DNA from: Rufibacter sp. XAAS-G3-1
GTDB taxonomy: Bacteria; Bacteroidota; Bacteroidia; Cytophagales; Hymenobacteraceae
Direction of reading: 5' to 3'
Length of the DNA: 64,000 bases
Assembly (NCBI RefSeq): GCF_013623775.1
Contig: NZ_JABFAM010000004.1
Span: 310,001 to 374,000, forward strand
The position numbers were made by a program, and so were the translations under genes. Every line of letters begins with the position of its first letter. Within the stretch, counting starts at the first letter, position 1. The notes below the pieces were generated by a model, which made no database searches, was not told the DNA's origin, and was given only the letters and a program-made list of their open reading frames with translations. Positions 895 through 63,952 of the stretch are shown piece by piece.

Positions 895-930
895 GTTTTT
901 ACTTTGTTTTCCCTAAAACACGCGGAAAAC
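895..930. repeat. 36-bp palindromic repeat D, copy 1
   Basis: Reads GTTTT-TACTT-TGTTTT-CCCT-AAAACA-CGCGG-AAAAC. The outer and inner blocks match the family pattern, but the middle N5 blocks do not pair. It lies 41 bp past the stop of the UbiA-family gene. Confidence 0.65.
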
Positions 931-971
931 GCCCGCGCCTCGTTTCCATTGCTCTGGTTACCTGCCAAGAC

Positions 972-1817
972 TTACCGAAGCACCATCATGGAACAGATCC
1001 CGACTACCATAATGGCCTTGCAAAGCCAACTCAGCTGCGCGTATTCCTTTTTTCTATCGGCGAAGAAAATCTGCCGGAGCAGTACCAGCGTGGGCAGCAC
1101 CACCCCTACAAAAAGATACACCAGAAACAGGGGTTCATGCTGGCGCTGCAGCATAATGAAGCCCGTGTAGAGCAGGAACAACGCAATGACTACATACAAC
1201 ACCCATTTGGTTTGGGGCAAGCCCAAGACAATGGGCAGCGTACGGCACCGAAAAGAGGCATCGCCGGGCACGTCTTCCATGTCCTTGATGATTTCGCGCA
1301 CCAGGGAGATAAGGAAGGCAAAAACGCCGTAGGCCCAAGCAGCCAGCGAAGGTTGCCCGGCCTGCAACGGCACCACCAACACCATAGTTGCCGACAACAG
1401 CGCGATGGTTAGGTTACCAATCAACGGGCGCTTCTTAAACTGTGCAGAGTACCCCCACAGCAGCATAGCCACCCCAAACAACACCGCCCCAATGCGCCAG
1501 CCTATCAAGCCTCCCAACAGCACTCCCGCCGCCGACAGATACAGGTGAATCATCATGGCCTTGCGGCGGGACAGGGCTTTGCCCACTACTACCCTTGCGG
1601 GCTTGTTGATTAGGTCTATCTTGACATCATAGTAATCATTGATAATGTAGCCCGCCGCCGCAATGCAAAGGGTAGCCACTACCAGCATAGCAAACGACCA
1701 GGACAGCGCCTCTAGAAACGTCCGTTCGGGAAAGACCAGGAACTTACGCACCATGAGCTGCGCCAACAGCATGATGATCAAGTTGGGGAACCGAATGAGG
1801 GCTAAAAACTGCTTCAC
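972..1817 (-). CDS. UbiA-family prenyltransferase (geranylgeranylglycerol-phosphate geranylgeranyltransferase-like)
   Basis: A polytopic membrane protein of 281 aa with about eight to nine predicted membrane segments. The first prenyl-diphosphate/Mg2+ motif is NDYYDVKIDLINKPARVV (N60, D61, D64, D68), and the second Asp-rich motif is in REIIKDMEDVPGDASF (about residues 173-188). Both are signatures of the UbiA superfamily, which transfers a polyprenyl chain to an aromatic or polar acceptor in the cytoplasmic membrane. Bacteroidota proteins of this length and motif spelling are usually named geranylgeranylglycerol-phosphate geranylgeranyltransferase. The acceptor cannot be read from sequence, so a role in menaquinone-like or ether-lipid chemistry is only inference. 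It lies between porZ and a cold-shock gene, all on the minus strand, with no obvious operon partner. Confidence 0.85.
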   Translation of the reverse strand: MKQFLALIRFPNLIIMLLAQLMVRKFLVFPERTFLEALSWSFAMLVVATLCIAAAGYIINDYYDVKIDLINKPARVVVGKALSRRKAMMIHLYLSAAGVLLGGLIGWRIGAVLFGVAMLLWGYSAQFKKRPLIGNLTIALLSATMVLVVPLQAGQPSLAAWAYGVFAFLISLVREIIKDMEDVPGDASFRCRTLPIVLGLPQTKWVLYVVIALFLLYTGFIMLQRQHEPLFLVYLFVGVVLPTLVLLRQIFFADRKKEYAQLSWLCKAIMVVGICSMMVLR

Positions 1818-1864
1818 AGGGGTTTATGGAAAGCGGAAGTTACGCTTAAAAATCCACCTATAAA

Positions 1865-1889
1865 AAAAGCCCCTGGAGCAGGGGCTTTT
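1865..1889 (-). terminator. Intrinsic terminator of the cold-shock gene
   Basis: AAAAGCCCCT, a GGAGC loop, then AGGGGCTTTT. It is 37 bp past the stop of the cold-shock gene, and the minus-strand transcript ends in a long U tract (complement of 1862-1868). Confidence 0.85.
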
Positions 1890-1926
1890 CAATGGGAATG
1901 CAAAATAAGTATGAGGCGTAGAAGTG

Positions 1927-2121
1927 TTAGAGTTTCTTCACGTTTACCGCGTTGATACCTTTCTTACCTTCTTTGGTGTCGAACTCTACTTTGTCGTGCT
2001 GTTGGATCTGGACACCATTGAGGCCGGTAATGTGAACAAAAAAATCCTCGTTGGTGGCTTCTTCTGTGATAAAGCCGTAGCCTTTGGATTCGTTGAAGAA
2101 TTTAACAGTCCCTGTTTTCAT
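1927..2121 (-). CDS. Cold-shock domain protein (CspA family)
   Basis: A 64-aa single OB-fold cold-shock domain. RNP1 is KGYGFI (residues 13-18) and RNP2 is DFFVHI (about residues 26-31); the protein starts MKTGTVKFFNESKGYGFI and ends near VNVKKL, the usual full length. Such proteins bind single-stranded RNA/DNA and act as RNA chaperones in the cytoplasm. It is a monocistronic unit: a Bacteroidota-type promoter precedes it at 2155-2185 and a strong hairpin terminator follows at 1865-1889. The predicted 5' leader is short (about 27 nt), unlike the long thermosensing leader of E. coli cspA, so cold regulation by a leader switch is not evident. Confidence 0.97.
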   Translation of the reverse strand: MKTGTVKFFNESKGYGFITEEATNEDFFVHITGLNGVQIQQHDKVEFDTKEGKKGINAVNVKKL

Positions 2122-2154
2122 AAAAATTTAAAAATTGAAAGAATGAATGATTCT

Positions 2155-2185
2155 GTAAATATAGGATTATTATACAAAAAGCAAA
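2155..2185 (-). promoter_or_regulatory. Promoter of the cold-shock gene
   Basis: On the minus strand TTTG (complement of 2182-2185), an 18-bp spacer, then TATATTTA (within 2155-2163). This matches the Bacteroidota -33/-7 pattern (TTTG / TAnnTTTG) and lies 34 bp before the ATG. Confidence 0.6.
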
Positions 2186-2233
2186 CTTTATTTATAAATT
2201 TTTGAAAAACAGGCGTATAAGTACGATTTCTGC

Positions 2234-2728: not shown

Positions 2729-2761
2729 GGTTAGGACATCAGGAAAAGAAACTCAAATTCC

Positions 2762-2797
2762 GTTTTTACGCTGTTTTAGCTGAAACAAGGCTGAAAC
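2762..2797. repeat. 36-bp palindromic repeat D, copy 2
   Basis: Reads GTTTT-TACGC-TGTTTT-AGCT-GAAACA-AGGCT-GAAAC. It begins 10 bp past the iscX stop codon and lies between iscX and kdsC. Confidence 0.75.
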
Positions 2798-2807
2798 GCC
2801 TAAAAGA

Positions 2808-3620: not shown

Positions 3621-3656
3621 GTTTTACGCCTGTTTTCCTGAAAACGGCTCATTTTC
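3621..3656. repeat. 36-bp palindromic repeat D, copy 3 (overlaps a CDS end)
   Basis: GTTTT-ACGCC-TGTTTT-CCTG-AAAACG-GCTCA, with the right outer block decayed to TTTTC. It supplies the last codons and the stop codon of the DUF2520 gene. Confidence 0.6.
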
Positions 3657-4516: not shown

Positions 4517-4552
4517 GTTTTAAGGCTATTTTCTTTAAAACAGGCCAAAAAC
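4517..4552. repeat. 36-bp palindromic repeat D, copy 4
   Basis: GTTTT-AAGGC-TATTTT-CTTT-AAAACA-GGCCA-AAAAC, lying just beyond the ccmF terminator hairpin. Confidence 0.8.
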
Positions 4553-7900: not shown

Positions 7901-7936
7901 GCTTTAAGCCTCTTATTGGTAAAACAGGCCCAAAAC
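7901..7936. repeat. 36-bp palindromic repeat D, copy 5
   Basis: GCTTT-AAGCC-TCTTAT-TGGT-AAAACA-GGCCC-AAAAC, 5 bp past the ccmD stop codon and before ccmE. Confidence 0.7.
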
Positions 7937-8220: not shown

Positions 8221-8872
8221 AGAATCGTTGCTTTAAAACTTCCAAACGGGTGCGAAGGTGCACCACCCAAACCCCTAAGAGCGTCCACCCCAGCACGGCC
8301 GGATAAAACACGGCCCGCAAACGGCTGTCCAGGTCATAGGCGTTGAAACCGGGGTTTCCGCCGTTGCCCGGGTGCAGGGAATCTGTGAGGCGCGGCAGAA
8401 TAAACAAGAGCGGGATAAGCGCCGCAAACGCGAAGATGTTGTACACCGCCCCAATACGGGCGCGCTGCTGATGGTCTTGGAAAGAACCCCGCAGAATAAG
8501 ATAAGCAAAGTAAATCAGGAGCCCGATGGCCGAGGCATTCTGCTTGGGATCATTGCTCCAGAACTCGCCCCACGTGAAACGGGCCCATTCCATGCCGGTG
8601 ATAATGCCCAGCACGCCAAACAGAATGCCCACCTTGGCCGCCTCATACGCGATGATGTCGTTCCGGGACAAGGGGTTTCTGAGGTATTTTATGGAATACA
8701 CCACCGAAACGAGCAAAATCACGATCATCCCAAACCACATAGGCACGTGAAAATACAGGTTGCGGATCGTCTCGTTCAGAATAGCCAGACGGGGCACCTC
8801 ACTGAGCATACCCACCACTACTGTATACAGCAACAGGAGAATCGTAAGCCATTTCCACCAACTTAGTCTCAT
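8207..8872 (-). CDS. ccmC: CcmC haem lyase / haem-handling membrane protein
   Basis: About 221 aa with six membrane segments. The tryptophan-rich motif reads WGEFWSNDPKQNASAIGLLI (near residues 100-120), with membrane-boundary histidines such as FHVPMWFG (about residue 42) and in the later loop. CcmC loads haem onto CcmE at the periplasmic face. The ATG at 8872 (MRLSWWKWL) is preferred; a TTG two codons upstream (8878) would add only two residues. The gene begins a few bases after the stop of a GIY-YIG gene and overlaps ccmD, so all are probably one transcript. Confidence 0.93.
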   Translation of the reverse strand: MRLSWWKWLTILLLLYTVVVGMLSEVPRLAILNETIRNLYFHVPMWFGMIVILLVSVVYSIKYLRNPLSRNDIIAYEAAKVGILFGVLGIITGMEWARFTWGEFWSNDPKQNASAIGLLIYFAYLILRGSFQDHQQRARIGAVYNIFAFAALIPLLFILPRLTDSLHPGNGGNPGFNAYDLDSRLRAVFYPAVLGWTLLGVWVVHLRTRLEVLKQRFYENA

Positions 8873-10168: not shown

Positions 10169-10296
10169 TTCTTCTTATTTTGGGGCAAAGGTACAACACA
10201 AATGCGTCTGGTGAGATGATTTCCGTCATTATTCCCGCTGGGGCGGCGTGATTTGGGGTTACTTTTAGGAAATCAGGTGTAAAACATACAAAATAG

Positions 10297-15680: not shown

Positions 15681-15716
15681 GTTTTGGTGCTATTTTCGCG
15701 AAAACAGCGCCAAAAC
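15681..15716. repeat. 36-bp palindromic repeat D, copy 6
   Basis: GTTTT-GGTGC-TATTTT-CGCG-AAAACA-GCGCC-AAAAC; arms pair almost completely (GTTTTGG/CCAAAAC). Confidence 0.8.
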
Positions 15717-15770: not shown

Positions 15771-15883
15771 CTGCTTCGTGTTTTATGCCTGCTTTCATAA
15801 AAACAGCCTAAAAACGATGGCACCAGCGGACACTTGCGGCAGAGGAACTGCCTTAAAAGCCGGTTAAGGAAAAACCTAAACAG
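15771..15883. repeat. Repeat B, copy 2 (contains repeat D copy)
   Basis: Aligns along its 113 bp with 24821-24934. Shared blocks are TTTCATAAAAACAGCCTAAA, ACGAtGGcACCAGC, ACttGC, TTAAAAGCCGGTTA and CTAAACAG. The left terminal arm is decayed here. It ends 8 bp before the MoxR stop codon. Confidence 0.7.
15780..15815. repeat. 36-bp palindromic repeat D, copy 7
   Basis: GTTTT-ATGCC-TGCTTT-CATA-AAAACA-GCCTA-AAAAC, nested in repeat B copy 2. Confidence 0.7.
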
Positions 15884-18199: not shown

Positions 18200-21100
18200 A
18201 TGTTTTCAACTTTACGCTTCCTGGCTTTCGCGTTGTTCCTATTCCCCCTCACCATGTATGGTGAAGGTTCAAAGCAACTTACCCCCAACAGATCAGGTGC
18301 TGCCTTAACCAGCTCTCTCAATGACAAGGCGGGCTATCTGGCCCACGATGCCAACTTACCCAGTGCAACGGGGGTAGCCATCACCTCTTTGAGTTTCTTA
18401 AAACCAGCTGGCTTCAGCCGTAACGGTGCTACTTACTCAAAAGACCACCGGCTCTACATTAGAGTAAAAGCAGGCGAAAGACTGTTTTACGGAGTACGCA
18501 GGGCGGTACATGATCAAACTACCGCTAACCAGGCAAACTTGGTTATCACTTTACGGCGCACCAATGTCGCCACTGGTGTAGATGACGCCGCCTATGCACA
18601 AGCAAATACACTTACAGCAAACACCTCTTCTACCAGAGACATGCTGCTGGTGGCAGGTCAGAACGGAGTGATAAACAGTCCTACGGAGGCTCAAAACGGC
18701 CCTAACCGGTCTGTCAATGGCAAAAATGTCAGCAACGGCTATAAACCCCTATCTATTCACAACACTACAGACGTAGATTATGACTATTATGTAGAATTCA
18801 CGCAGGTAGGCGAAACATCTTGGACAGATGATGGCCGCCGGTTCTCTGTCTATGACCTGTGGGACTTTACCGTGATTGATGCCAACGGAGATGAGAGACA
18901 AGGCCGCTTGCGCAGCAAGCTCTGGTCTTTCTCTGCCGGAGGCACTGCCAACGTCTTTTCCAAAGACTTCAACATGTTCCCTCTTATCCCCAGCCAGGAT
19001 CAAACTGGAAAGTACTTCGTGAAGAAGATTGAATTGGCGGGGATTGCCCCCCAAAACTTTTTCCGGTTTGTCACCAACAGTGCCGGGTCTGCTTCTGCTT
19101 CTAACAGAGTAACAGAATCTGAGAGAAGAAAAAGCCAGCTAAGCCAGACAGACTACCCAGAGTACTTCAACTTTGTGAATGACCCAGACCCCGCTATCTG
19201 GCCAAGTGCAACTGCGCCTAGTTTTACGGTTAGCATGAATACTTTTTGCAACACCACCACGGGCGGCGGCAGAACCTTGTTCAACCTGAACACAACAGAG
19301 AGAAGTACCTTTCTGGTCTTGATCAACCTGAACGGGACAGACGGGTATCAAGCCAACACCTCTGATGTTCTCTTGGAGTCTGTGGGCAACAAAGGAACCC
19401 GGGCTGCAGAATGGAATGGCCTGGATGGCTTAGGGAAAGTGGTACCGAAAGGCACCGCACTCAAGTACTTCTTCCGGAATGGTAGCGCGCCGGTTCATTT
19501 CCCGGTCTGGGATGCCGAGTGGAACGATGGTTTCAGGGTGCTGGATGTACGTCCGCTCGCCCCGGGCACCACAACACCTGATTATTCCCTGCTTTACTGG
19601 GATGACATCAACTTAGCCGCTACATCATTCCCTACCCGTTCTGAGCTTTTCGGCATAGAATCAACGGCTGGTGTTCATACCTGGGGTTCTGCCTCCAGAA
19701 CCGCCGGTGACTTGAAAACGGTGAATACCTGGACATACGGCTATACCTCTTCCAGCCAACAAGATGCTACCCTTACCTATGACTGCAGCGCAGATGTGGC
19801 GGTCACGAATACCGCGCCTGCCGGTTCTTACGCCGTGGGCAGAGAATTCACGTACACGGTCACCGTCACCAACAACGGCCCCATGCCAGCCACCAATGTG
19901 GTGGTGACCGATAAACTGGATGCTGCTAAGCTACAGTTCATAAGTTCTTCAGACGCATCGTACACCAACAGCAGCACCGGCTCCTGGAACGTAGGCACCT
20001 TGGCCGTGGGAGCCTCAAAAACGCTGACCATTACCGCTAAACCCCTAGTAACCGGAAATATCACCACCACTGCCGCCCAAAGCCACACCGAAGCTGACAA
20101 TGTACCGGCAAACAATAGCATGAGTACGACCATCACCGTTCAGCCTTCTGCGGATATAGCCGTGAGCAATACCGTGTCTAAAACCAGTCTTTACAACGGT
20201 GAACTTGTTACCTACACCATAACGGCCCTAAACCTAGGCCCCGATGCTGCTAACGGAGTCACGGTAACCGACAAGCTACCTGCCGGGCTCACATTAAGCA
20301 CTACACCAAGCGGGTACAATGCTGCTACCGGCCTCTGGACGGTAGGCACCTTAGCGGTGAATGAAACCAAAACCCTGACGTTAACTGCCAGAGCATCGCA
20401 GTTAGGGAATATCACCACCACCGCCACTTCAGGCAGCAGAGCAAACAATGAGCTGGATTTAAACGACAACAACAACACAGCCTCCAACACCATCACCGTC
20501 ACACCAGCCGCCGATGTTGCGGTCACCGGTTCCGTTTCTAATTCGGCCCCCGGCCAGGGAGATGCTATTACCTACACCATCAAAGTTAACAACCTGGGGC
20601 CCAACAACGCTACCAATGTAGCGGTGGCAAACCCATTACCCGCCGGTTTAACCTACCTTAGCCACACAGCCAGCGCAGGCACCTTTCGCTCAGAGAGCGG
20701 CACCTGGACAGTGGGAACCGTTGTGACGGGTGGTACCCAAACCTTAACTATCACGGCCAAACCAACGGTTACCGGCACTGTGGTACTTTCCTCTACGCAA
20801 ACGCATACAGAAACAGATACCCAAAGCAACAACAACACGGCTGGTAGCACCATCACGGTGAAACCAACGGCAGATGTGGCGGTAACCAACGTCATCACGT
20901 CGGCATCTAAAGCAACATACGACAATGGCGAAGAGATTACCTATACTGTCACCGTTACCAACAATGGCCCAAGCACCGCTACCAACGTAGTCATCACAAA
21001 CAAATTACCCGCTTCTTTGAACTTTGTAAGCGCCAGCAACTCTACCGGAACCGGAACTTACAGTGCTGACACGGGCACCTGGCCCGTAGGTACTCTGGCA

Positions 21101-24100
21101 AAAGGAGCTTCCGCTACCCTCACCCTGGTAGCTAAAGTAACCCAAAGCGCCATTATCACCACAACGGCCACTCAAACCCACGCCCAGTATGACAATGTGA
21201 ATGGGAATAACAGTGCCTCTACCTCAATCACATCCGGAACTGGCATTATATCCGCAGATGTAAAGGTAAGTATCACTGAATCTGATGGGCCTTACTACAC
21301 GGGCAAAGAAGTTACCTTGATTGTTAAAGCAGAAAACCAGGGCCCAGATGCCGCCACCAATGTTACCCTAGAGGCATTGGTGCCTGTAGGCTTCACTCTG
21401 AAAAGCGCGACTCCTAAAGTAGGCTCCTACAACTCTACCAGTGGTGTCTGGACAGTAGGGAGCATCGCTTCTAATGCCTATACAGAACTACTCGTAGTCG
21501 CGGTTCCTAACCCTGACCACGCCGTTGCCGGAGACAAGTCCTATACCTTCACTGCAACTAAGAAATCTGCGAACGAGACCGACCCCAATACAGCGAACAA
21601 CACTGCCTCTACCACTTTAACCGTCCAGAAAGCGGCAGACCCAAGCGTAACGCTAGCCGTTTCCGGAGATGTAAATGGCGTCTATTACAATGGGGTAACC
21701 GAGGCCACCTTTATCATGACGGTTACCAACAACGGCCCCGATAAAATCACCAATTTGGTAGGCTATGACACCCGTTCAGAAACCCTGGAGTTCACCTACG
21801 CCGAGGAAGGAAAAGGCTATGACCCTGTAACCGGCAAGTGGGTTATTCCTTCTTTAGACCCAGGTCAGTTCGTAACCCTTCTAGTAAAAGGCAAGCCCAA
21901 TAAAACAGGCCGCCTCAATTTGGGGGGCAGCATCACTTATTCAGATCAACATGATCTGAACAGCGAAAACAACAAAGCAGTCGCCTTGCTCAACGTGGTA
22001 CCGGTAGCAGAGCTGCAAATTACCAACACGGCTGCCGATGGGCCTTACTACAACGGGCAGAATACGTTTATTACAGTTAAAGTAAGAAACAACGGCGCAG
22101 ATCCGGCTACCCAAGTGCAGATCTTAAACAAATTACCTGCCGGGTTAACCTTTGTGAGCGCAGACCCAACCGTGGGCACCTATGATGCTACTACTGGAAT
22201 CTGGACTTTGGGTACGGAAGTATTGCCTGGCACAACCCAGTCTTTAGTGTTGGAAGTGAAACCAACCGCCGGGGTCACCTATGCTACTACGGCCTCCGTA
22301 AAAACAGCAACTGAGTTTGACAATGACACGGCTAATAATAGTGCCACCACCGCCATCACGGTTGGCAAAACCGCTGACATCGCTTTAAGCAGTTCTATTG
22401 TTCCGGGCCCTTACTATGTAGGGGGCAAGTACCAGGTCACCATCACCGCTACCAACCTAGGGCCTGACCCTGCTACAGGGGTGGTTTCATCGGCAAGCGT
22501 AGCTTCGGGCCTAAGGATAGTACCTGACAGCGAGGTGGCAACTGAAGGAACAACCGTCAACACCGCCTCTAGCATTTGGACTATTGGCAACATAGGGGTA
22601 AATGAAACCAAAACGCTCACGTTTCTGGCAGAGCCTCTTACCACGGGTACGCTCAACAGCCTGGGGTACAAATCAGCACAAAATGAGTTTGACCCTAATG
22701 GGGGCACTACCCAAAACGGCAACAACAGTACGGTCGTAAGCTTCACAATACAAGACCGTAAAGCAACGGCACAGGTAGTCCTTACGGGCAAACACATGTT
22801 CTTCTATAAAACCGGTGACCACATCATTGAGATAACAGATTTGGACGGCCCCATTGAGAATGCCCGTCTTGCGAGCGGCACCTTACCAGCCGGTATGCGC
22901 TTAGAAAGCGATGGCACCCTGGAAGTAAACAATAAGTTTGCCTTGGTACCAGGAACGTATACTCTGACCATTGAAACCACCGATACCCAAGGGGGTGTTT
23001 CCAGCAACACCCTTACCTACGCCATCTCCGGCGACTGGGACAACGACGGTGTCCCAGATGTGATAGACCGGGATGACAACAATGATGGCATCATCACCGA
23101 ACCCGGTGCTGTAAACCCTACCGGCGACCATGATGGAGACGGTATCTACAACTTCCTTGACAAAGACTTTGTTCACCCAGTGTACGGAGCTTTCCAGGAC
23201 AAAAACAATGATGACATCCATGATGCCTTTGACCTGGACTTGGATGGCTTAATCAGAGGCTTTGACATTGACATAGACGGAGACGGCATCACCAATACGC
23301 TTGAAGCAAACGGCGGCAAAGCGCCAGCGGGCTATGATCCGGTAACCGGCACCTTCCCTGGCCAGGTAAATGAGGTTGGTATACCCCTGGCTGTCTTAGA
23401 CGCCAACGGAAAGAACACGCTTCCAAACCCAGACACAGACGGCGACGGCTTTGTTGACTTCCAGGATATTGACTCAGACAACGACGGCATTCTGGACACC
23501 TATGAAGCGCAACTCACGCAAAATTTCAACAATGGCTTTGGAATAGACTTAGACTCAGACGGCCTCAGCGACGGCTATGATGCCACCACTGGCGGCCAGG
23601 CCCTTATCCCAGTAGATACGGACAAGGACGGAACCCCAGATTACCTGGACAGAGACAGCGACGGAGACTTCTCCCTAGACTATGTAGAAGCCTTTGATGA
23701 CAACGCAGACGGTAAGTCACTAGACGATTTAATGGAACGTGCCCGGGTTTTTGAGGAAGTAAATGCAAAGAACTACTATGTAAACGACCAGTTGGGCACC
23801 GAAGTCCCCAACTGGCTGAAACTCACCAACGCCTACCCTGTCTTCCTAACCAAAACGAGCAGCTATTACCATGACTCTGACCTTGACGGTATGGTAGACC
23901 TGTTTGACACAGACAGCGGCGGCAGAAAGGCCTCCTTGCAGACCTCAGACAATAATGAATACTCCTACCGCTCTTCGGAAGTAGTCACCCCGCTCCCGGT
24001 AACCCTCATCAGTTTCACGGCCAAAGCGCAAAAAGGAGGCGTAGAACTGAAGTGGGGGACAGCCTCTGAGAAAGAGAACGAGTACTTCCAGGTAGAGAGA

Positions 24101-24538
24101 AGCCTTGACGGAAAGAACTTCAGCGCCATTGGTCAGGTAAAAGGAGCCGGAAACAGCACCGTGCGCCTGGACTACCGTTTCCTGGACAGCAACACCGCTA
24201 CTGGCACTGTCTATTACCGCCTGAAGCAGGTAGACGCTAACGGTGCCTTTGAGTACAGCAAGACCGTTGCCCTAGAAACCAAAGCCAGCGCGGCCTCAAT
24301 AACGGTGAAAGCGTATCCTAACCCAACACCAGACGTGGTCAACTTGGATCTTACCCAACTGCCTGTTTCTGACGTGCAAATCAGCATCTACGCCCTAAAC
24401 GGACGCCTGCTGAAAACACTTACCGTAACCGGTGGTTCCCTCCAGAAGCTTGACCTGACCACCGTAGCCGTAGGCACCTACCTGGTTAAACTAAAAGAGG
24501 CCAATGTGGTGACCGTACTCCGCGTGGTGAAACAGTAA
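18200..24538 (+). CDS. Giant secreted protein: eight DUF11 repeats, TSP3-like Ca2+ repeats, T9SS type A sorting domain
   Basis: A 2112-aa protein with signal peptide (residues 1-21). The N-terminal about 530 residues are unique. Eight DUF11 repeats of about 120 residues follow (starting near 530, 650, 770, 890, 1019, 1144, 1268 and 1391), each opening ADVAVTN-like and containing YTVTVTNNGPxxATNVVVTDxLP. A putative Ig-like domain (about 1520-1610) precedes Asp-rich thrombospondin-type-3-like repeats (about 1610-1920; DWDNDGVPDVIDRDDNNDG, DTDGDGFVDFQDIDSDNDG) likely to bind Ca2+. A fibronectin-like domain (about 1930-2025) leads to a C-terminal T9SS type A domain (AYPNPTPDVVNLDL to VGTYLVKLKE). 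It should be exported by T9SS and anchored or released at the surface as an adhesin-like fibre. A perfect terminator follows. Confidence 0.93.
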   Translation: MFSTLRFLAFALFLFPLTMYGEGSKQLTPNRSGAALTSSLNDKAGYLAHDANLPSATGVAITSLSFLKPAGFSRNGATYSKDHRLYIRVKAGERLFYGVRRAVHDQTTANQANLVITLRRTNVATGVDDAAYAQANTLTANTSSTRDMLLVAGQNGVINSPTEAQNGPNRSVNGKNVSNGYKPLSIHNTTDVDYDYYVEFTQVGETSWTDDGRRFSVYDLWDFTVIDANGDERQGRLRSKLWSFSAGGTANVFSKDFNMFPLIPSQDQTGKYFVKKIELAGIAPQNFFRFVTNSAGSASASNRVTESERRKSQLSQTDYPEYFNFVNDPDPAIWPSATAPSFTVSMNTFCNTTTGGGRTLFNLNTTERSTFLVLINLNGTDGYQANTSDVLLESVGNKGTRAAEWNGLDGLGKVVPKGTALKYFFRNGSAPVHFPVWDAEWNDGFRVLDVRPLAPGTTTPDYSLLYWDDINLAATSFPTRSELFGIESTAGVHTWGSASRTAGDLKTVNTWTYGYTSSSQQDATLTYDCSADVAVTNTAPAGSYAVGREFTYTVTVTNNGPMPATNVVVTDKLDAAKLQFISSSDASYTNSSTGSWNVGTLAVGASKTLTITAKPLVTGNITTTAAQSHTEADNVPANNSMSTTITVQPSADIAVSNTVSKTSLYNGELVTYTITALNLGPDAANGVTVTDKLPAGLTLSTTPSGYNAATGLWTVGTLAVNETKTLTLTARASQLGNITTTATSGSRANNELDLNDNNNTASNTITVTPAADVAVTGSVSNSAPGQGDAITYTIKVNNLGPNNATNVAVANPLPAGLTYLSHTASAGTFRSESGTWTVGTVVTGGTQTLTITAKPTVTGTVVLSSTQTHTETDTQSNNNTAGSTITVKPTADVAVTNVITSASKATYDNGEEITYTVTVTNNGPSTATNVVITNKLPASLNFVSASNSTGTGTYSADTGTWPVGTLAKGASATLTLVAKVTQSAIITTTATQTHAQYDNVNGNNSASTSITSGTGIISADVKVSITESDGPYYTGKEVTLIVKAENQGPDAATNVTLEALVPVGFTLKSATPKVGSYNSTSGVWTVGSIASNAYTELLVVAVPNPDHAVAGDKSYTFTATKKSANETDPNTANNTASTTLTVQKAADPSVTLAVSGDVNGVYYNGVTEATFIMTVTNNGPDKITNLVGYDTRSETLEFTYAEEGKGYDPVTGKWVIPSLDPGQFVTLLVKGKPNKTGRLNLGGSITYSDQHDLNSENNKAVALLNVVPVAELQITNTAADGPYYNGQNTFITVKVRNNGADPATQVQILNKLPAGLTFVSADPTVGTYDATTGIWTLGTEVLPGTTQSLVLEVKPTAGVTYATTASVKTATEFDNDTANNSATTAITVGKTADIALSSSIVPGPYYVGGKYQVTITATNLGPDPATGVVSSASVASGLRIVPDSEVATEGTTVNTASSIWTIGNIGVNETKTLTFLAEPLTTGTLNSLGYKSAQNEFDPNGGTTQNGNNSTVVSFTIQDRKATAQVVLTGKHMFFYKTGDHIIEITDLDGPIENARLASGTLPAGMRLESDGTLEVNNKFALVPGTYTLTIETTDTQGGVSSNTLTYAISGDWDNDGVPDVIDRDDNNDGIITEPGAVNPTGDHDGDGIYNFLDKDFVHPVYGAFQDKNNDDIHDAFDLDLDGLIRGFDIDIDGDGITNTLEANGGKAPAGYDPVTGTFPGQVNEVGIPLAVLDANGKNTLPNPDTDGDGFVDFQDIDSDNDGILDTYEAQLTQNFNNGFGIDLDSDGLSDGYDATTGGQALIPVDTDKDGTPDYLDRDSDGDFSLDYVEAFDDNADGKSLDDLMERARVFEEVNAKNYYVNDQLGTEVPNWLKLTNAYPVFLTKTSSYYHDSDLDGMVDLFDTDSGGRKASLQTSDNNEYSYRSSEVVTPLPVTLISFTAKAQKGGVELKWGTASEKENEYFQVERSLDGKNFSAIGQVKGAGNSTVRLDYRFLDSNTATGTVYYRLKQVDANGAFEYSKTVALETKASAASITVKAYPNPTPDVVNLDLTQLPVSDVQISIYALNGRLLKTLTVTGGSLQKLDLTTVAVGTYLVKLKEANVVTVLRVVKQ

Positions 24539-24548: not shown

Positions 24549-24603
24549 CCCTAAAAGGCAGAGGCACCCCATGGGGTGCCTCTGCCTTTTAGGGGTATTT
24601 TTT
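24549..24603 (+). terminator. Strong terminator of the giant DUF11 gene
   Basis: Perfect 22-bp stem (24549-24570 with 24573-24594) and a 2-base centre, followed by GTATTTTTT. It lies 11 bp past the stop codon. Confidence 0.92.
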
Positions 24604-24610
24604 GAAAAAG

Positions 24611-24658
24611 AGCGCAAAAACAAAGTTGAGTGAAGGCAATATCACTTGGTTTTGCGCT
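24611..24658. repeat. Inverted repeat AGCGCAAAAACAAAG / CTTGGTTTTGCGCT
   Basis: Imperfect 14-15-bp arms around about 20 bp. It sits directly between the DUF11 terminator and the larger hairpin at 24664. Confidence 0.5.
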
Positions 24659-24820: not shown

Positions 24821-24934
24821 CTGTTTAGAGTTTTAGGCCTGTTTTCATAAAAACAGCCTAAAAACGACGGTACCAGCCAACGCTTGCCCCATCCAATTTT
24901 TTTTAAAAGCCGGTTACTGCAAAACTCTAAACAG
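24821..24934. repeat. Repeat B, copy 1 (contains repeat D copy)
   Basis: Perfect 14-bp terminal inverted repeats CTGTTTAGAGTTTT (24821-24834) and AAAACTCTAAACAG (24921-24934) enclose a repeat D palindrome, ACGACGGTACCAGCCAACGC and TTTTAAAAGCCGGTTAC. Its second copy is at 15771-15883. Confidence 0.75.
24830..24865. repeat. 36-bp palindromic repeat D, copy 9
   Basis: GTTTT-AGGCC-TGTTTT-CATA-AAAACA-GCCTA-AAAAC, nested in repeat B copy 1. Confidence 0.85.
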
Positions 24935-25633: not shown

Positions 25634-25669
25634 GCTTTGGAGCTGTTTCCGCAAAAATAGCCTTAAAAC
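25634..25669. repeat. 36-bp palindromic repeat D, copy 10
   Basis: GCTTT-GGAGC-TGTTTC-CGCA-AAAATA-GCCTT-AAAAC, in the gap between the divergent acidic-protein and aldehyde-dehydrogenase genes. Confidence 0.65.
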
Positions 25670-27894: not shown

Positions 27895-27930
27895 CTTTCA
27901 GGCATCTTTTTGAAAAAACAGGCCAAAAAC
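27895..27930. repeat. 36-bp palindromic repeat D, copy 11
   Basis: CTTTC-AGGCA-TCTTTT-TGAA-AAAACA-GGCCA-AAAAC; left outer block partly decayed. Confidence 0.55.
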
Positions 27931-28002: not shown

Positions 28003-28038
28003 GTTTTAGGCCTACTTTTGGTAAAACAGCCCTGAAAC
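28003..28038. repeat. 36-bp palindromic repeat D, copy 12
   Basis: GTTTT-AGGCC-TACTTT-TGGT-AAAACA-GCCCT-GAAAC, 31 bp past the stop of the acetyltransferase gene. The rest of 27184-28069 outside repeats A, C and D shows no gene. Confidence 0.8.
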
Positions 28039-28806: not shown

Positions 28807-29670
28807 ATGCAAATAGAAGAAAAAGCACCAATGCAGCTAGAGGAGCTGGAACAAGTGGCCAAGCAAGTACGCCGGGACATTGTAAGAATGGTACACGGTT
28901 GCCAGTCGGGGCACCCGGGCGGCTCCTTGGGCTGCACCGATTACCTGGTGGCGCTGTACTTCCGGATTATGATCCACTCCACCGATTTCGACATGAACGG
29001 CCAGGGCGAAGACCTGTTCTTCCTTTCCAACGGCCACATCTCGCCGGTGTGGTACAGTGTGTTGGCCCGGGCAGGCTACTTTGACGTGAGCGAGCTGAAG
29101 ACCTTCCGGAAACTGGATTCCCGTCTGCAGGGCCACCCCACCACCCATGAAGAATTGCCGGGCGTACGCATCGCCTCTGGTTCACTGGGCCAGGGTTTAT
29201 CGGTGGCCATCGGCGCGGCGTTGACCAAAAAATTGAACAATGACCCAGGTCTGGTGTTCACGCTACACGGCGACGGTGAGTTGCAGGAGGGCCAAATCTG
29301 GGAAGCGGCGTTGTTCGCCCCGCACAACAAAGTAGACAACCTCATCTCCACCATAGACGTGAACGGCCAGCAGATTGACGGCCCTACTAACAAAGTCTTG
29401 GATTTAGGTAATCTGCGCGCCAAGTGGGAAGCCTTTGGCTGGGATGTCATGGAAATGAATGGCAATGACCTGGCAGACGTGATTAGAGTGCTGGAACTGG
29501 CCAAAGCCAAAGCCTACAAGGGAAAACCTATCATGATTCTGATGCAAACCAACATGGGCCACGGCGTGGATTTCATGATGGGGTCGCACAAATGGCACGG
29601 CGTGGCGCCCAATGATGAACAGCTTTCTCTGGCCTTGGGTCAACTCACCAGCAACATGCAGGATTACTAA
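28807..29670 (+). CDS. Transketolase N-terminal subunit
   Basis: A 287-aa thiamine-diphosphate-binding subunit of a split transketolase. CQSGHPGGSLGCTDYLVAL (about residues 37-55) and the ThDP motif GDGELQEGQIWEAALFAPHN (GDG near residue 157) are clear, with DVNGQQIDGPT after it. With the C-terminal subunit it moves two-carbon units between ketoses and aldoses in the pentose phosphate pathway. The stop is 92 bp from the partner gene. The ATG at 28807 is preferred; an upstream frame at 28662 is a different reading frame. Confidence 0.94.
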   Translation: MQIEEKAPMQLEELEQVAKQVRRDIVRMVHGCQSGHPGGSLGCTDYLVALYFRIMIHSTDFDMNGQGEDLFFLSNGHISPVWYSVLARAGYFDVSELKTFRKLDSRLQGHPTTHEELPGVRIASGSLGQGLSVAIGAALTKKLNNDPGLVFTLHGDGELQEGQIWEAALFAPHNKVDNLISTIDVNGQQIDGPTNKVLDLGNLRAKWEAFGWDVMEMNGNDLADVIRVLELAKAKAYKGKPIMILMQTNMGHGVDFMMGSHKWHGVAPNDEQLSLALGQLTSNMQDY

Positions 29671-29675: not shown

Positions 29676-29711
29676 GTTTTAAGGCTCCTTTTCTAAAAAC
29701 AGCCTTGAAAT
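29676..29711. repeat. 36-bp palindromic repeat D, copy 13
   Basis: GTTTT-AAGGC-TCCTTT-TCTA-AAAACA-GCCTT-GAAAT, starting 5 bp past the stop of the N-terminal transketolase gene, inside the two-gene unit. Confidence 0.75.
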
Positions 29712-30737: not shown

Positions 30738-30773
30738 GATTTTACCCCCAATTTGGGAAAACAGTGCAGAAAC
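30738..30773. repeat. 36-bp palindromic repeat D, copy 14
   Basis: GATTT-TACCC-CCAATT-TGGG-AAAACA-GTGCA-GAAAC, 6 bp past the stop of the C-terminal transketolase gene. The left half is divergent. Confidence 0.55.
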
Positions 30774-31550: not shown

Positions 31551-31586
31551 GTTTTAAGCCTTATTTTGCGAAAACAGCCCTGAAAC
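31551..31586. repeat. 36-bp palindromic repeat D, copy 15
   Basis: GTTTT-AAGCC-TTATTT-TGCG-AAAACA-GCCCT-GAAAC, 10 bp past the HAD stop codon. Confidence 0.8.
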
Positions 31587-32087: not shown

Positions 32088-32135
32088 TTTTCTGTTTTCA
32101 GGCTGATTTCCTGAAATCAGCCTGAAAACAGAAAA
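32088..32135 (-). terminator. Perfect hairpin (repeat D copy 16 extended) after the DUF294 gene
   Basis: A 23-bp perfect stem with a 2-base centre. The inner 36 bp (32094-32129) is repeat D: GTTTT-CAGGC-TGATTT-CCTG-AAATCA-GCCTG-AAAAC. Flanking TTTTCT/AGAAAA extends the stem and provides a U run. It lies 12 bp past the DUF294 stop. Confidence 0.75.
32094..32129. repeat. 36-bp palindromic repeat D, copy 16
   Basis: Fully paired copy; the inner block AAATCA replaces AAAACA and the opposite arm changed to match (TGATTT). Confidence 0.85.
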
Positions 32136-34962: not shown

Positions 34963-34998
34963 GTTTTGGGCACGATTTGGCCAAAACGTGCCCAAAAC
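34963..34998. repeat. 36-bp palindromic repeat D, copy 17
   Basis: GTTTT-GGGCA-CGATTT-GGCC-AAAACG-TGCCC-AAAAC; the outer ten bases pair perfectly (GTTTTGGGCA / TGCCCAAAAC). Confidence 0.85.
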
Positions 34999-35232: not shown

Positions 35233-35268
35233 GTTTCTGAGCCATTTTCCCTAAAACAGCCCTAAAAC
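35233..35268. repeat. 36-bp palindromic repeat D, copy 18
   Basis: GTTTC-TGAGC-CATTTT-CCCT-AAAACA-GCCCT-AAAAC, 39 bp past the araA stop. Confidence 0.75.
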
Positions 35269-39617: not shown

Positions 39618-39667
39618 GATTCCCGTTTAGAGGCTGTTTTCTGTGAAATAGCCTCTAAACGGGAATC
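39618..39667 (-). terminator. Hairpin after araR (repeat D copy 19 extended)
   Basis: GATTCCC-GTTTAGAGGC pairs perfectly with GCCTCTAAAC-GGGAATC (17 bp). The core 39625-39660 is repeat D. It lies 58 bp past the araR stop. Confidence 0.55.
39625..39660. repeat. 36-bp palindromic repeat D, copy 19
   Basis: GTTTA-GAGGC-TGTTTT-CTGT-GAAATA-GCCTC-TAAAC; both arms changed together (GTTTAGAGGC / GCCTCTAAAC). Confidence 0.85.
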
Positions 39668-40635: not shown

Positions 40636-40671
40636 ATTTTTAAGCTGTTTTCAAGAAAAGGGGCTAAAAAC
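40636..40671. repeat. 36-bp palindromic repeat D, copy 20
   Basis: ATTTT-TAAGC-TGTTTT-CAAG-AAAAGG-GGCTA-AAAAC, upstream of araR and beyond the galM terminator. The rest of 40434-40719 shows no gene. Confidence 0.6.
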
Positions 40672-43136: not shown

Positions 43137-43172
43137 GTTTTGTGGCTGTTTTGGCCAAAATGCACCGAAAAC
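43137..43172. repeat. 36-bp palindromic repeat D, copy 21
   Basis: GTTTT-GTGGC-TGTTTT-GGCC-AAAATG-CACCG-AAAAC, 23 bp before the GH43 start and after GH97. Confidence 0.7.
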
Positions 43173-45291: not shown

Positions 45292-45327
45292 ATTTCGGAG
45301 CTGATTTTCAGAAAATAACTCTAAAAC
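45292..45327. repeat. 36-bp palindromic repeat D, copy 22
   Basis: ATTTC-GGAGC-TGATTT-TCAG-AAAATA-ACTCT-AAAAC, upstream of the GH97 start. Confidence 0.6.
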
Positions 45328-45344: not shown

Positions 45345-45432
45345 GCAAAAAGAAGAAAGGGAGCGATGAAAGCGGGGCCGTTTTCAGGCCGAATTTGCCA
45401 AAACAGCCCAAAAACGCCGCTCCATCGCTCCC
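45345..45432 (-). terminator. Terminator-like hairpin after GH51 enclosing repeat D copy 23
   Basis: GGGAGCGATG (45359-45368) pairs perfectly with CATCGCTCCC (45423-45432), with repeat D (45380-45415) as the inner stem. On the minus strand a T-rich stretch (complement of 45345-45358) follows. It begins 4 bp past the GH51 stop. Confidence 0.65.
45380..45415. repeat. 36-bp palindromic repeat D, copy 23
   Basis: GTTTT-CAGGC-CGAATT-TGCC-AAAACA-GCCCA-AAAAC, nested in the GH51 terminator hairpin. Confidence 0.75.
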
Positions 45433-49967: not shown

Positions 49968-50003
49968 GTTTTAAGCCTTCTTTTCTAAAAACAGCCCTAA
50001 AAC
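49968..50003. repeat. 36-bp palindromic repeat D, copy 24
   Basis: GTTTT-AAGCC-TTCTTT-TCTA-AAAACA-GCCCT-AAAAC, 65 bp past the GH43 stop and before the GH127 gene. Confidence 0.8.
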
Positions 50004-58463: not shown

Positions 58464-58499
58464 GTTTTACAGCAGTTTTCCCAAAACAAGGCCTAAAAC
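58464..58499. repeat. 36-bp palindromic repeat D, copy 25
   Basis: GTTTT-ACAGC-AGTTTT-CCC-AAAACA-AGGCCT-AAAAC. The inner blocks are shifted by one base but total length is still 36. Confidence 0.65.
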
Positions 58500-58517: not shown

Positions 58518-58553
58518 GTTTCTGGCCTTTTTTCAGAAAAACAGGCCAGAAAC
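58518..58553. repeat. 36-bp palindromic repeat D, copy 26
   Basis: GTTTC-TGGCC-TTTTTT-CAGA-AAAACA-GGCCA-GAAAC; arms covary (GTTTCTGGCC / GGCCAGAAAC). Confidence 0.85.
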
Positions 58554-59603: not shown

Positions 59604-59625
59604 AAGGCCAGTACGGCACCAGACG

Positions 59626-59661
59626 TTTTAAGCCTGTTTTTACAAAAGGGCAGCAAAAAGC
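59626..59661. repeat. 36-bp palindromic repeat D, copy 27
   Basis: GTTTT-AAGCC-TGTTTT-ACAA, with a decayed right half (AAGGGC-AGCAA). It is 22 bp past the GH43 stop and runs into the terminator. Confidence 0.55.
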
Positions 59662-60866: not shown

Positions 60867-60902
60867 GTTTTGAATGCTTTTTTGCCAAAACTTCTCCAAA
60901 AC
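60867..60902. repeat. 36-bp palindromic repeat D, copy 28
   Basis: GTTTT-GAATG-CTTTTT-TGCC-AAAACT-TCTCC-AAAAC, 45 bp before the kinase start; the middle blocks do not pair. Confidence 0.5.
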
Positions 60903-62135: not shown

Positions 62136-62369
62136 ACCCAAGAGGGCGATAGGCCTGCTGTTCTCAGATATCTCCGCAACAACGGTACAGTTAGGGCTCT
62201 GGAGGTAGAGACAAGAACCAAAAGCGGCGAAATCTGCTATATCTCCATCAACTCCAATTTAGTAAACCTGGATGGGCGGGAATGCCTGGTCACTGCGTTT
62301 ACAGATATCACGCAGAAGAAAGAAGCAGATGAGCTTATAAAGAATCTCAATATCTCCTTAGAGAAAAAT

Positions 62370-63872
62370 GTGGCGAAGAGAATGAAGGAAACAGCCGACT
62401 ACAAGTATGCGCTGGATCAATCTGCTATAGTAACCATAGGCAACGAAAACGGCGTGATCATTTATGCGAATGATTACGCCTGCGCCATATCTGGGTACAG
62501 CAGAGAAGAACTGATAGGCAGTGTCTATGGGCTCACTACTTCTGAGTACATTTCAGATGAATTACTAGAAGAGTTGCGGCAAAAGCTTTCCGGCGGAAAC
62601 ACCTGGAAGGGCGAAATCAAAAACAAAAGCAAAAGCGGCACCTACTACTGGACAGAAGCCACCATTGTCCCTATTCTTGACGAAACGGGCATTCCGTACC
62701 AGTACATGTCCATCAGGTGGGACATCACCTCCCAGAAAGCCAACGAAGTGGCCTTGCGGCAGGCTTTTGAAGAACTTGAAAAAAGCGAGGCCCAGCTTAA
62801 AGAAGCCCAGGCACTGTCTCATATGGGCAGCTGGGAATACTCTTTTGATGCCGAGGAAAATATCTGGTCAGACGAGATATACAGGATCTTAGGCACCACC
62901 CCCGCTGAGACTCAGCCAACATTTACCTCGTACTTGCAATTTGTGCACCCAGAAGATGTAGCCATGGTGGAGGAAACCGTGAGGAGCACCATTAGATCTA
63001 CCGAGAAATCGTGCCAATATCATTGCCGAATCATTCACAAAAATGGAGATGTGCGGTACCTCTTCAATGAATTCACCAGGGAGCCTTCCCTGCCGGGCCA
63101 GCCAGACAAACTATTGGGAATTGTACAGGATGTGACCAATGAAAGACTTGCCCAACTGGAAAAAGAGCGCATCACGGCAGATTTGCTGCAACGGAACAAG
63201 GACCTGGAGCAGTTTGCCTACATAGTCTCGCACAACCTCAGAGCTCCCGTCGCCAATATCATTGGCCTGTCTAACCTCATGCGTACCCTGGGCCCCGAAA
63301 ACCCAACGTTTTTTAAATCCATGGAAGGTTTGCAGATTTCGGCCCATAAACTGGACGCGGTGATCAATGACCTGAACAACGTCTTACAGATACGGCGGGA
63401 AGTGAACGAGCGAAAGGAACAGGTAAACCTGAACCAGTTGGTAGAAGATATAAAAACCATGACCTCGGGCCTAATGGCCAAAGAAAACGTCTCCATCAGC
63501 ACCAATTTCTCTGATGTTGACAGTCTCTATACCATCAAAAGTTACCTGCACAGCATTTTCGCCAATCTTATCTCCAACAGCATCAAGTACCGCCAGGCCC
63601 ACCAGGTTCCCACCATTGAGATTTGGTCTTGTAAAAAAGGCGGGAAGAAGATCATCACCTTCCGCGACAACGGCTTGGGCATAGACCTGAAAACCCACCA
63701 GCACAAGATCTTCGGTCTGTACAAACGGTTCCATTTCCATACCGATGGCAAAGGCATGGGCTTGTTTATGGTAAAAACGCAGGTAGAAGCATTGGGCGGT
63801 AAAATCCAGGTGCAAAGCGAGATCAACCAGGGAACCGAGTTCTCCATTGAGTTTGACGAGGCCTACACCTAA
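62370..63872 (+). CDS. 3' part of the interrupted histidine kinase (PAS and kinase region)
   Basis: About 500 codons if started at GTG 62370 (ATG at 62382 is the next option); neither has a convincing ribosome site. Contains PAS3 (about residues 12-125; YALDQSAIVTIGNENGVI), PAS4/PAC (about 145-265; GSWEYSFDAEENIWSDEIYR), HisKA with phospho-accepting His in FAYIVSHNLRAPVANIIG, and the HATPase: N box LISNSIKYRQ, G1 FRDNGLGID, G2 GKGMGLFMVKTQVEALGG. It ends TEFSIEF, the normal kinase end. No response-regulator gene is in the window. Confidence 0.8.
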   Translation: MAKRMKETADYKYALDQSAIVTIGNENGVIIYANDYACAISGYSREELIGSVYGLTTSEYISDELLEELRQKLSGGNTWKGEIKNKSKSGTYYWTEATIVPILDETGIPYQYMSIRWDITSQKANEVALRQAFEELEKSEAQLKEAQALSHMGSWEYSFDAEENIWSDEIYRILGTTPAETQPTFTSYLQFVHPEDVAMVEETVRSTIRSTEKSCQYHCRIIHKNGDVRYLFNEFTREPSLPGQPDKLLGIVQDVTNERLAQLEKERITADLLQRNKDLEQFAYIVSHNLRAPVANIIGLSNLMRTLGPENPTFFKSMEGLQISAHKLDAVINDLNNVLQIRREVNERKEQVNLNQLVEDIKTMTSGLMAKENVSISTNFSDVDSLYTIKSYLHSIFANLISNSIKYRQAHQVPTIEIWSCKKGGKKIITFRDNGLGIDLKTHQHKIFGLYKRFHFHTDGKGMGLFMVKTQVEALGGKIQVQSEINQGTEFSIEFDEAYT

Positions 63873-63916
63873 AAACCGCTTCTGTAAAAGCAGCCCCCTA
63901 ACGAACACTCCGGGTC

Positions 63917-63952
63917 GTTTTCGGCCTATTTTTCTGAAAAGGCCCTAAAAAC
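63917..63952. repeat. 36-bp palindromic repeat D, copy 29
   Basis: GTTTT-CGGCC-TATTTT-TCTG-AAAAGG-CCCTA-AAAAC, 44 bp past the kinase stop. The last 48 bp of the window show no assignable feature. Confidence 0.65.

Follow-up and report, generated by a model that had tools for sequence, protein, structure and literature searches.

Along a window of 64,000 nucleotides of Rufibacter DNA, the stretch analysed here as a whole, the same 36-bp palindrome (repeat D) recurs in the gaps between genes, which raises the question of whether it works as a hairpin in RNA, as a mobile repeat or as a site on the double-stranded DNA. About 29 copies had been proposed by a sequence-only reading, and a search with the pattern GTTTT-N5-TGTTTT-N4-AAAACA-N5-AAAAC indeed returned 29 at up to 4 substitutions and 30 at up to 5 (Table 1), with no match at up to 4 mismatches in any of ten third-order Markov controls of the window. 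Two of the 30 are doubtful, one overlapping the 3′ end of an ORF (3621) and the other lying within an ORF (8675). Those coordinates of the earlier reading that were checked proved correct, and the copy assigned to the stop at 30731 is present at 30738 with 6 mismatches; the estimate of at least 16 copies within 66 bp past a stop codon agrees with our counts of 15 of 30 at −12 to 66 bp, or 16 of 31 with 30738 included. The asserted fixed length of 36 bp was also observed, as a loop of 4 gives 29 copies, a loop of 3 gives 8 and other loops give 0–4, although in one length scan the contrast is somewhat flattered, since the other lengths required exact GTTT/AAAC and the 36-bp form was allowed one mismatch. 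Conserved bases form short separated blocks (GTTT, TTT and their mirrors) across the 36 bp. In length and in its GTTTT...AAAAC ends, D resembles CRISPR repeats, and the Rfam 15 families gave no match to the window above gathering score. The excess over control is genome-wide, a loose form of the pattern having 1305 matches in the Rufibacter genome and its reversed form none.

Table 1. Copies of repeat D in the window (window coordinates)
Positions	Element	Mismatches	Context
895..930	D copy	0	gap occupied in 16/16 genomes
2762..2797	D copy		10 bp from stop at 2808; gap occupied in 8/15 relatives
3621..3656	doubtful D copy	5	overlaps ORF 3′ end
4517..4552	D copy		adjoins classical intrinsic terminator (stem + U-tract) of CcmF gene
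7901..7936	D copy		5 bp from stop; gap occupied in 16/16 genomes; no hairpin fold
8675..8710	doubtful D copy	4	within ORF
10250..10285	D copy	4	
15681..15716	D copy	1	paired with 15780
15780..15815	D copy	1	paired with 15681
24586..24621	D copy		flush 3′ of terminator-like stem
24830..24865	D copy	0	
25634..25669	D copy		divergent gap; occupied in 7/10 relatives, offsets similar
27895..27930	D copy		
28003..28038	D copy		31 bp from stop
29676..29711	D copy		5 bp from stop at 29670
30738..30773	weak D copy	6	by stop 30731; outside the counts of 29 and 30
31551..31586	D copy		10 bp from stop at 31540
32094..32129	D copy		perfect 16-bp arms; 18 bp from stop
34963..34998	D copy		15/16 arm pairs
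35233..35268	D copy		39 bp from stop
39625..39660	D copy		GTTTA/TAAAC arms; 65 bp from stop
40636..40671	D copy		
43137..43172	D copy		
45292..45327	D copy		
45380..45415	D copy		21 bp from stop
49968..50003	D copy		65 bp from stop
58464..58499	D copy		
58518..58553	D copy		15/16 arm pairs
59625..59660	D copy		21 bp from stop
60867..60902	D copy		
63917..63952	D copy		44 bp from stop

All 16 Rufibacter genomes searched contain D (32–1655 matches per genome), and the sampled genomes outside the genus hold 0–2 matches; in a limited look at the Rufibacter literature we met no description of such a repeat. Where a gap carries D here, the gap of a relative was also occupied in 112 of 134 comparisons, against 9 of 147 for gaps lacking it. 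The spelling of the repeat varies by species in the manner of dialects, and the genome G048 has 1257 copies with a TCATTT core versus 32 of the usual D, such cores numbering 0–8 per genome in the remaining 15. These respelled copies occupy the same gaps (5/5 gaps with D versus 0/9 without). Density showed no trend with chromosome position in windows sampled from two genomes; an origin/terminus gradient, considered when the perfect copies among the matches listed for G022 seemed uneven, was discarded in view of these trendless windows. Spacing is slightly more even than random, with 122 of 213 gaps occupied against 100±4.6 expected and a coefficient of variation of 1.12 against 1.26±0.09.

Orthologous copies in sister species reveal which letters are held. 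The TT/AA steps at positions 3-4, 14-15, 22-23 and 33-34 are nearly unchanged, the substitution rate at positions 3, 4, 14 and 15 (halves pooled) being 0.00–0.06 compared with 0.16–0.19 in the outer flanks. For G037/G051 the rates are 0.15–0.30 at positions 5-13, 17 and 18 and 0.08–0.11 at positions 1, 2 and 16; in G017/G022, positions 1, 2, 5, 6 and 11 are constrained too (0.01–0.08). All eight consensus step bases were kept in 52/55, 47/57, 58/75 and 65/78 sister copies, where about 20% would be expected at the flank rate of change, and indels are rarer within D (0.002) than outside it (0.011–0.021). The three gap types, divergent, convergent and co-directional, show a comparable level of constraint, in figures which, like the pooled counts given below for stem extensions, gap positions, terminators and promoters, combine orthologous loci from several species and are non-independent. 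By a crude extrapolation from the flanks, sister copies keep a spacing of 36±3 in 38/70, 39/73, 63/82 and 59/86 cases, so that D can be demonstrated in place for some copies and not for all.

Such a pattern bears directly on the idea that D is a 3′ UTR hairpin ending or stabilising transcripts, for which the sequence-only reading had invoked covariation of the arms. That covariation is weakly present: in the 28 window copies left after dropping 3621 and 8675, 77.9% of paired cells matched versus 75.0% in shuffled sets, and the score was attained in 3 of 500 shuffles, but the number of pairs changed on both sides was reached by 165 of 500, and in a larger set of 225 copies (454 kb) only positions 5, 6, 8 and 10 were significant. 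Orthologues of copy 7901 likewise covary at positions 5-6, the full hairpin forms in 3 of 8 window copies tested, and about 10% of copies sit in longer stems, the gene-specific extensions described earlier being borne out by an outer extension score of at least 5 in 91 of 846 pooled copies compared with 12 when flanks were shuffled. Selection on a hairpin, on the contrary, did not hold up, for most arm positions of sister copies change at about the rate of the flanks and their pairing is not preserved: with 4 and 5 indel-bearing copies set aside, single changes turned Watson-Crick pairs into unpaired ones 68 and 102 times and the reverse 87 and 110 times, and the pair survived through two changes in just 7 and 6 cases. 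Moreover, copy 7901 persists without folding, and D is equally constrained in divergent gaps. D is strand-symmetric and has therefore no U-tract built in past its stem; it lacks what marks an intrinsic terminator, a stable stem followed by a U-tract with the pairing maintained, and classical intrinsic terminators stand beside it as separate elements. On the sister substitution patterns, the conserved copies that do not fold and these separate terminators, the RNA hairpin was rejected, and we regard it as improbable. Steps fixed while arms drift, rare indels and unmaintained pairing are rather the pattern of a protein–DNA contact, and D is probably a protein site read on the double-stranded DNA and not a hairpin in RNA. 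A mutational by-product, in which template switching at quasi-palindromes perfects the arms and sustains the repeat without selection, could account for the left-right coupling and for the gene-specific outer arms, but explains neither the near-zero substitution at eight separated bases beside drifting arm bases nor the fixed length and the dialects; the sister-pair substitution pattern speaks against it, and this already disfavoured account is hardly credible.

The location of D with respect to genes was followed with gene and terminator calls from simple purpose-written scripts. Within co-directional gaps, 313 of 431 copies lie closer to the upstream 3′ end and 117 to the downstream start, with a spike 0–10 nt after stops, an enrichment that also favoured a role in RNA. 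The 3′-end element proposed earlier stands in being lineage-specific, selected, intergenic and enriched at gene ends, but not in its RNA or hairpin nature, given that arm pairs are lost between sisters about as often as they are gained. In gaps below 150 bp, copies per kb amount to 7.3–7.8 in convergent, 1.6–3.4 in co-directional and 0–1.2 in divergent gaps, which rules out an even spread over gap types for short gaps. Although 94 of 312 copies are flush with terminators (−5 to 40 of the T-tract), the association with predicted terminators in co-directional gaps is weak (odds ratio 1.3), and between 150 and 250 bp such gaps have D less often with a predicted terminator (0.36) than without (0.50). 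The weak link, together with the equal constraint of divergent-gap copies, led us to reject a terminator-bound element as the complete account. In 15 of the 16 co-directional gaps that contain both D and a recognisable promoter, the promoter is on the downstream side of D; a full promoter-like motif occurs in 0.04 of 367 gaps with D versus 0.06 of 339 without, and a shorter one in 0.25 versus 0.18. A strict transcription-boundary role is not supported by these association figures. D is rare in coding DNA, called genes accounting for 18 of 225 copies. Single half-sites there number 22 versus 17 for the reversed control, close enough to indicate no half-site use in genes, and in intergenic DNA outside D they number 18 versus 4, an excess that may consist of decayed copies or single half-sites.

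Mobilisation of D as a REP/REPIN family by a RAYT (TnpA-REP) transposase had also been put forward, with the advice to look for the gene. D shares with such families intergenic palindromes, copies in the hundreds to thousands and a bias to gene ends, and Y1 transposase genes do exist in 15 of the 16 genus genomes; one RAYT of G060 sits among 7 D copies, and one rare foreign-dialect copy in G022 is 280 bp from a RAYT gene. D is nevertheless not their repeat, for other hairpins border the Y1 genes at 19 of 20 genus loci read by eye, and D copies within 450 bp of Y1 loci are mostly 90–440 bp off. Copy number does not track Y1 number: G017 has 764 D copies and no Y1 match at E ≤ 0.001, and among 74 genomes sampled from other genera, which lack D, 59 have Y1 matches. 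The consensus carries neither the GTAG nor the CGTC tag by which PMC3733652 defines REP stem-loops. Unlike REPs and REPINs, D keeps its gap occupancy across the genus and does not conserve a hairpin. Among cases with −40 to 25 bases between the flanks, neither of two sister pairs showed a cleanly empty site bearing a target duplication, the 19–31 of 70–86 cases per comparison with other spacings being mostly unread. The RAYT explanation was already disfavoured by these observations, and we consider it very unlikely.

The strongest rival to a protein site is a DNA-uptake signal with dialects. DUS and USS cores are short, about 9–12 bp. D could be a self-recognition signal for natural transformation and recombination, like the neisserial DUS, a possibility that we rate as unlikely though serious; a putative surface or competence receptor would prefer DNA carrying D, and biased uptake with recombination would homogenise sites and dialects, a scheme to which we likewise give a minor share of belief. 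In this line, many species carry around a thousand copies of D or more, the dialects differ between species, density shows no trend along the chromosome, and D is indifferent to gene context and occupies permissive intergenic positions beside terminators. According to Frye et al. (PMC3630211), the DUS of Neisseriaceae and USS of Pasteurellaceae are similar in large copy number, dialects, permissive core-genome positions and terminator association, DUS reaching thousands of copies with dialects that track core-genome phylogeny and permissive intergenic positions; intragenic DUS are, however, common in the same source, and D is rare in genes. It also differs as a rigid 36-bp bipartite dyad with four contact steps in place of a 10-12-mer, has no short, often intragenic core and belongs to Bacteroidota; nor are half-sites enriched in coding DNA. 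GC-atypical windows of G048 hold 0, 5 and 2 copies versus a mean of 10.0, and the lowest-GC window of G022 holds 1, but other such windows hold 10 and 9 in G022 and 12 and 12 in the genome studied here. A whole-genome switch of dialect would be easier if individual sites were dispensable, and biased DNA uptake or a similar drive could keep this many redundant sites strongly constrained. ComEC is present in 16/16 genus genomes, but it is non-specific, occurs in 10 of 14 control genomes and is a precondition only.

Returning to the protein site, we infer that a D-binding protein exists: a putative genus-specific, two-fold symmetric DNA-binding protein, acting as a dimer or tetramer that makes two contacts in each half-site, would read the TT/AA steps of the rigid 36-bp site, and the softer lineage-specific positions would make up the dialect. 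The sites would lie all round the chromosome between genes, mostly past stops and terminators and ahead of the next start, where they might serve in chromosome organisation or in insulation between neighbouring transcription units; protein and sites would co-evolve, so that whole genomes change spelling. An architectural or insulating role is tentatively proposed, at a little under an even chance, and the combined reading of a DNA-level protein site with that role is held just as cautiously. Coupling between left and right at positions 5/6 and the longer palindromes round about 10% of copies are left unexplained by a simple dimer site. The inner 16 bp of D, TGTTTTNNNNAAAACA, match parS in length and arm ends; parS and Noc sites of ParB-family proteins number a handful, compared with hundreds to over a thousand for D. 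A ParB paralogue as binder was rejected, since in the 14 genus genomes sampled ParB_N has one match per genome (0–2 in 46 others) and no extra ParB was found. Also like D, HIP1 of cyanobacteria (GCGATCGC) is, according to PMC4390886, a highly iterated, lineage-wide palindrome of debated function; however, HIP1 is 8 bp long and linked to methyltransferases, and D has 36 bp with many unconstrained letters and no contiguous conserved 8-bp palindromic core.

Dispersed repeats of bacteria are usually attributed to mobile REPs or to terminators. The sequence evidence on D suggests instead over a thousand conserved putative protein sites that change spelling together. That Rufibacter has a new genome-wide DNA address system, with a dedicated putative protein or uptake receptor and co-evolving 36-bp dialect sites, seems to us evenly balanced between true and false. 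In this reading, many species would have about one to two thousand such sites, and one species would have respelled nearly all of its own. If true, this would be the first uptake or self-recognition code known in Bacteroidota or a new class of organiser, in the latter case sequence-specific and with far more sites than known chromosome organisers. Comparison of the dialects over the 16 genomes offers a direct route to the partner protein, and would allow the study of how specificity changes in a protein and in its whole set of sites.

The palindromic repeat D, a 36-bp intergenic unit of the form GTTTT-N5-TGTTTT-N4-AAAACA-N5-AAAAC, was initially counted from the sequence alone at about 29 copies in the window. 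A motif scan bears this out, with 29 copies at up to four substitutions and 30 at up to five, against none in each of ten third-order Markov sequences; loop lengths other than that of D gave at most 8 matches each. A scan at up to five mismatches over 454 kb of the same genome, made up of the window and 390 kb more (374 kb of the total on one contig, 80 kb on a second), gives 226 raw matches versus one in the Markov control, and 225 copies once overlaps are removed. Over the whole genome (5.3 Mb), a loose pattern allowing no more than one mismatch is matched 1305 times and its reversed version never. In sampled 20-kb windows, counted at up to five mismatches, the mean is 8.2 copies for the relative G022 (from 32 windows, including 12 contiguous ones) and 9.2 for the relative G048 (27 windows), which extrapolates to some 1,800-2,100 copies per genome.

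The perfect form of D was found at no fewer than 107 loci across the genome collection, and all matches listed, which may lack those from the window's own genome, belong to Rufibacter or Sabulibacter ruber. In a family sample of 150 genomes, all 16 Rufibacter members carry D (32-1655 copies each), and among the 134 genomes of other genera one or two matches occur in 14, while the reversed control matches once in 4. An order sample of 390 genomes included 7 members of the genus with 23-556 exact copies each, and outside it 11 genomes with one or two exact copies and 9 with one control match. A literature search on Rufibacter found no title that concerns such a repeat.

The low count of G048 is due to its different spelling: it holds 32 copies of the usual D but 1257 with the core TCATTT...AAATGA, which the other 15 genomes of the genus have 0-8 times each. 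When any 36-bp palindrome with GTTT/AAAC ends was accepted, whatever its inner letters, a clear species-specific consensus emerged in the window's genome and in G012, G045 (beginning GTTTAGGGGCT), G048, G054, G060, G017 and G022. G063 and G006 have 4-5 such palindromes, and G037, G027, G051, G042, G057 and G032 have 0-2 in 40 kb, their D copies being less perfect palindromes. Under a slightly stricter rule, palindromes of other lengths number 0-2 per set and length. Copies spelled as in G048 appear in other species, singly or as a close pair (two locations are in the table; other rare sites exist), and one such copy lies 280 bp from a RAYT (TnpA-REP) transposase gene; they suggest exchange within the genus of DNA that brings a foreign dialect along.

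Occupancy of the gaps between neighbouring genes near the CcmF gene was compared in the window's genome and 15 relatives. Where the former has D, relatives have it too in 112 of 134 comparisons, versus 9 of 147 where it has none (p 0.0001 to 0.057 per relative), and all 16 genomes have D in the two gaps to which the window copies 895 and 7901 belong. G048, with its other spelling, carries D in 5/5 of the occupied gaps and 0/9 of the unoccupied ones, at about equal offset in two of the five and with a different gap length or offset in the other three. In the sister pairs G017/G022 and G037/G051, the spacing between extrapolated flanks is 36±3 in only 38/70, 39/73, 63/82 and 59/86 cases, so some copies could not be placed.

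The same sister pairs reveal which positions of D are constrained. Of the 87 copies in G017, 53 were matched to orthologues in G022, and of the 96 in G037, 74 to orthologues in G051, with alignments extending at least 40 bp past D; the rates pool both halves. At the TT/AA steps (positions 3-4, 14-15, 22-23 and 33-34), positions 3, 4, 14 and 15 change at rates of 0.01, 0.02, 0.00 and 0.03 in the first pair and 0.01, 0.06, 0.02 and 0.04 in the second; the outer flanks change at 0.16-0.19. Since copies were picked by pattern in one species only, regression would push the step rates up, not down. In G037/G051, the rate is 0.08-0.11 at positions 1, 2 and 16 and 0.15-0.30 at the remaining arm positions, and in G017/G022 positions 1, 2, 5, 6 and 11 are constrained as well (0.08, 0.05, 0.01, 0.08 and 0.07). 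Indels amount to 0.002 per base within D versus 0.011-0.021 outside, and all eight consensus step bases are found in 52/55, 47/57, 58/75 and 65/78 sister copies. With each pair read both ways, step changes number 0/56, 0/64, 2/88 and 3/88 in divergent gaps, 3/240, 7/256, 6/296 and 6/304 in co-directional gaps, and 1/64, 1/64, 7/104 and 5/120 in convergent gaps. Four short contacts with 11-8-11 spacings about a rigid dyad are the trace that a symmetric DNA-binding protein would leave.

The sequence-only reading had seen covarying arms and, from these, selection on a hairpin. Covariation stands in part, being weak among the 28 intergenic window copies and significant at positions 5, 6, 8 and 10 only among the 225, but pairing is not kept between sisters. 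Leaving aside copies with indels, a single change broke a Watson-Crick pair 68 times in G017/G022 and 102 times in G037/G051 and created one 87 and 110 times, respectively, with 7 and 6 pairs retained through two changes. Base pairing as such is not conserved, and the hairpin proposal is not supported: folding of the 7901 copy is no better than that of shuffled sequences, and 3 of 8 window copies folded form a full hairpin. Positions 5 and 6 are paired in 13/16 and 11/16 orthologues of the 7901 copy, and less, in 12/16 and 8/16, at 895. The gene-specific stem extensions described earlier are confirmed, longer palindromes surrounding 91 of 846 pooled copies versus 12 with shuffled flanks. Possible sources of these palindromes and of the residual pairing are symmetric dialects, arm-copying at replication or more than one half-site preference.

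The analysis of position covers 747 intergenic copies from 16 genomes, with each orthologous locus counted on its own. In gaps below 150 bp, density is 7.3-7.8 per kb when convergent, 1.6-3.4 when co-directional and 0-1.2 when divergent; above 250 bp the three classes differ less. The suspected enrichment near gene ends is real, as 313 of 431 copies in co-directional gaps lie closer to the upstream 3' end and 117 closer to the downstream start; counts spike at 0-10 nt past stop codons. D starts at -5 to 40 from the T-tract in 94/312 predicted terminators and stands immediately ahead of the stem in 68/307 of those having a next gene. Within co-directional gaps, D and predicted terminators are hardly associated (odds ratio 1.3, reversed in the 150-250 bp class). 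The full promoter-like motif is found in co-directional gaps at a frequency of 0.04 where D is present (367 gaps) and 0.06 where it is absent (339), and in 15 of the 16 gaps that have both, the motif is on the downstream side of D. From these placements, D tends to occupy the free space between a gene end and the next start region. Along the chromosomes of G022 and G048, copy density follows no trend. GC-atypical windows hold 0, 5 and 2 copies in G048 (mean 10.0), 1, 10 and 9 in G022 (mean 8.3), and 3, 5, 5 and 7 (low GC) and 12 and 12 (high GC) in the window's genome (mean 10.5); the D-poor stretches of G048 and G022 are possibly recent acquisitions.

Mobilisation of D as a REP/REPIN family by a RAYT had also been proposed. 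Y1 transposase genes were sought and found in 15 of 16 Rufibacter genomes, but 19 of 20 loci (L001, L109-L127, by eye) are bordered by hairpins unlike D, such as GCGTGCGGACACGAGCTGCAAGCTCGCGCC or ACAAGTTACGCTATCGCTAAACTTGCGGGAG, and in L122 the gene is incomplete, with no visible bordering hairpin. G017, with 764 D copies, gave no Y1 match at E≤0.001, and Y1 genes are present in 59 of 74 sampled genomes of other genera, in which D gives no more than 0-2 matches per genome. D is thus rejected as the REP of local RAYTs. Judged by eye, the hairpins bordering the Rufibacter genes fall into several distinct families, each a candidate for an uncharacterised REP type. By length and motif, these genes would belong to TnpA-Y1 subclass 2.6 of Bacteroidetes, for which PMC6006769 describes atypical flanking structures.

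Coordinates of single features in the window and in related genomes and loci
Record	Position	Feature
Window	30738	Weak D copy, 6 mismatches to the motif, additional to the 29/30
Window	18200-24538	Open reading frame of 2112 aa
Window	35308-63872	Large arabinose/arabinan utilisation cluster (Pfam): AraA, FGGY kinase, GH97, GH127, arabinofuranosidases, GH43, TonB receptor
G057:C1	455180-455391	G048-spelled D
L121 (G022)	2255	G048-spelled D
L126 (G060)	351-2372	7 D copies in ~2 kb round a RAYT gene, densest cluster of the 20 Y1 loci
L228	1275-1310	Sole strict D match in the viral collection; piece of a 39-kb contig
G048:C1	100001-140000	D-poor or D-free, GC-atypical
G048:C1	3410001-3430000	D-poor or D-free, GC-atypical
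G022:C1	3635500-3655499	D-poor or D-free, GC-atypical

We take it as established that D is a selected, DNA-level site of the type that a protein would recognise, whose gap occupancy extends across the genus and whose spelling forms species dialects. A putative protein would read it. An uptake or self-recognition signal comes as a close second among the possible roles: according to PMC3630211, DUS-type sites share with D the dialects, permissive positions and association with terminators, but they are short and often intragenic, unlike D. Our first choice is that D may help to organise the chromosome or insulate transcription units from one another.
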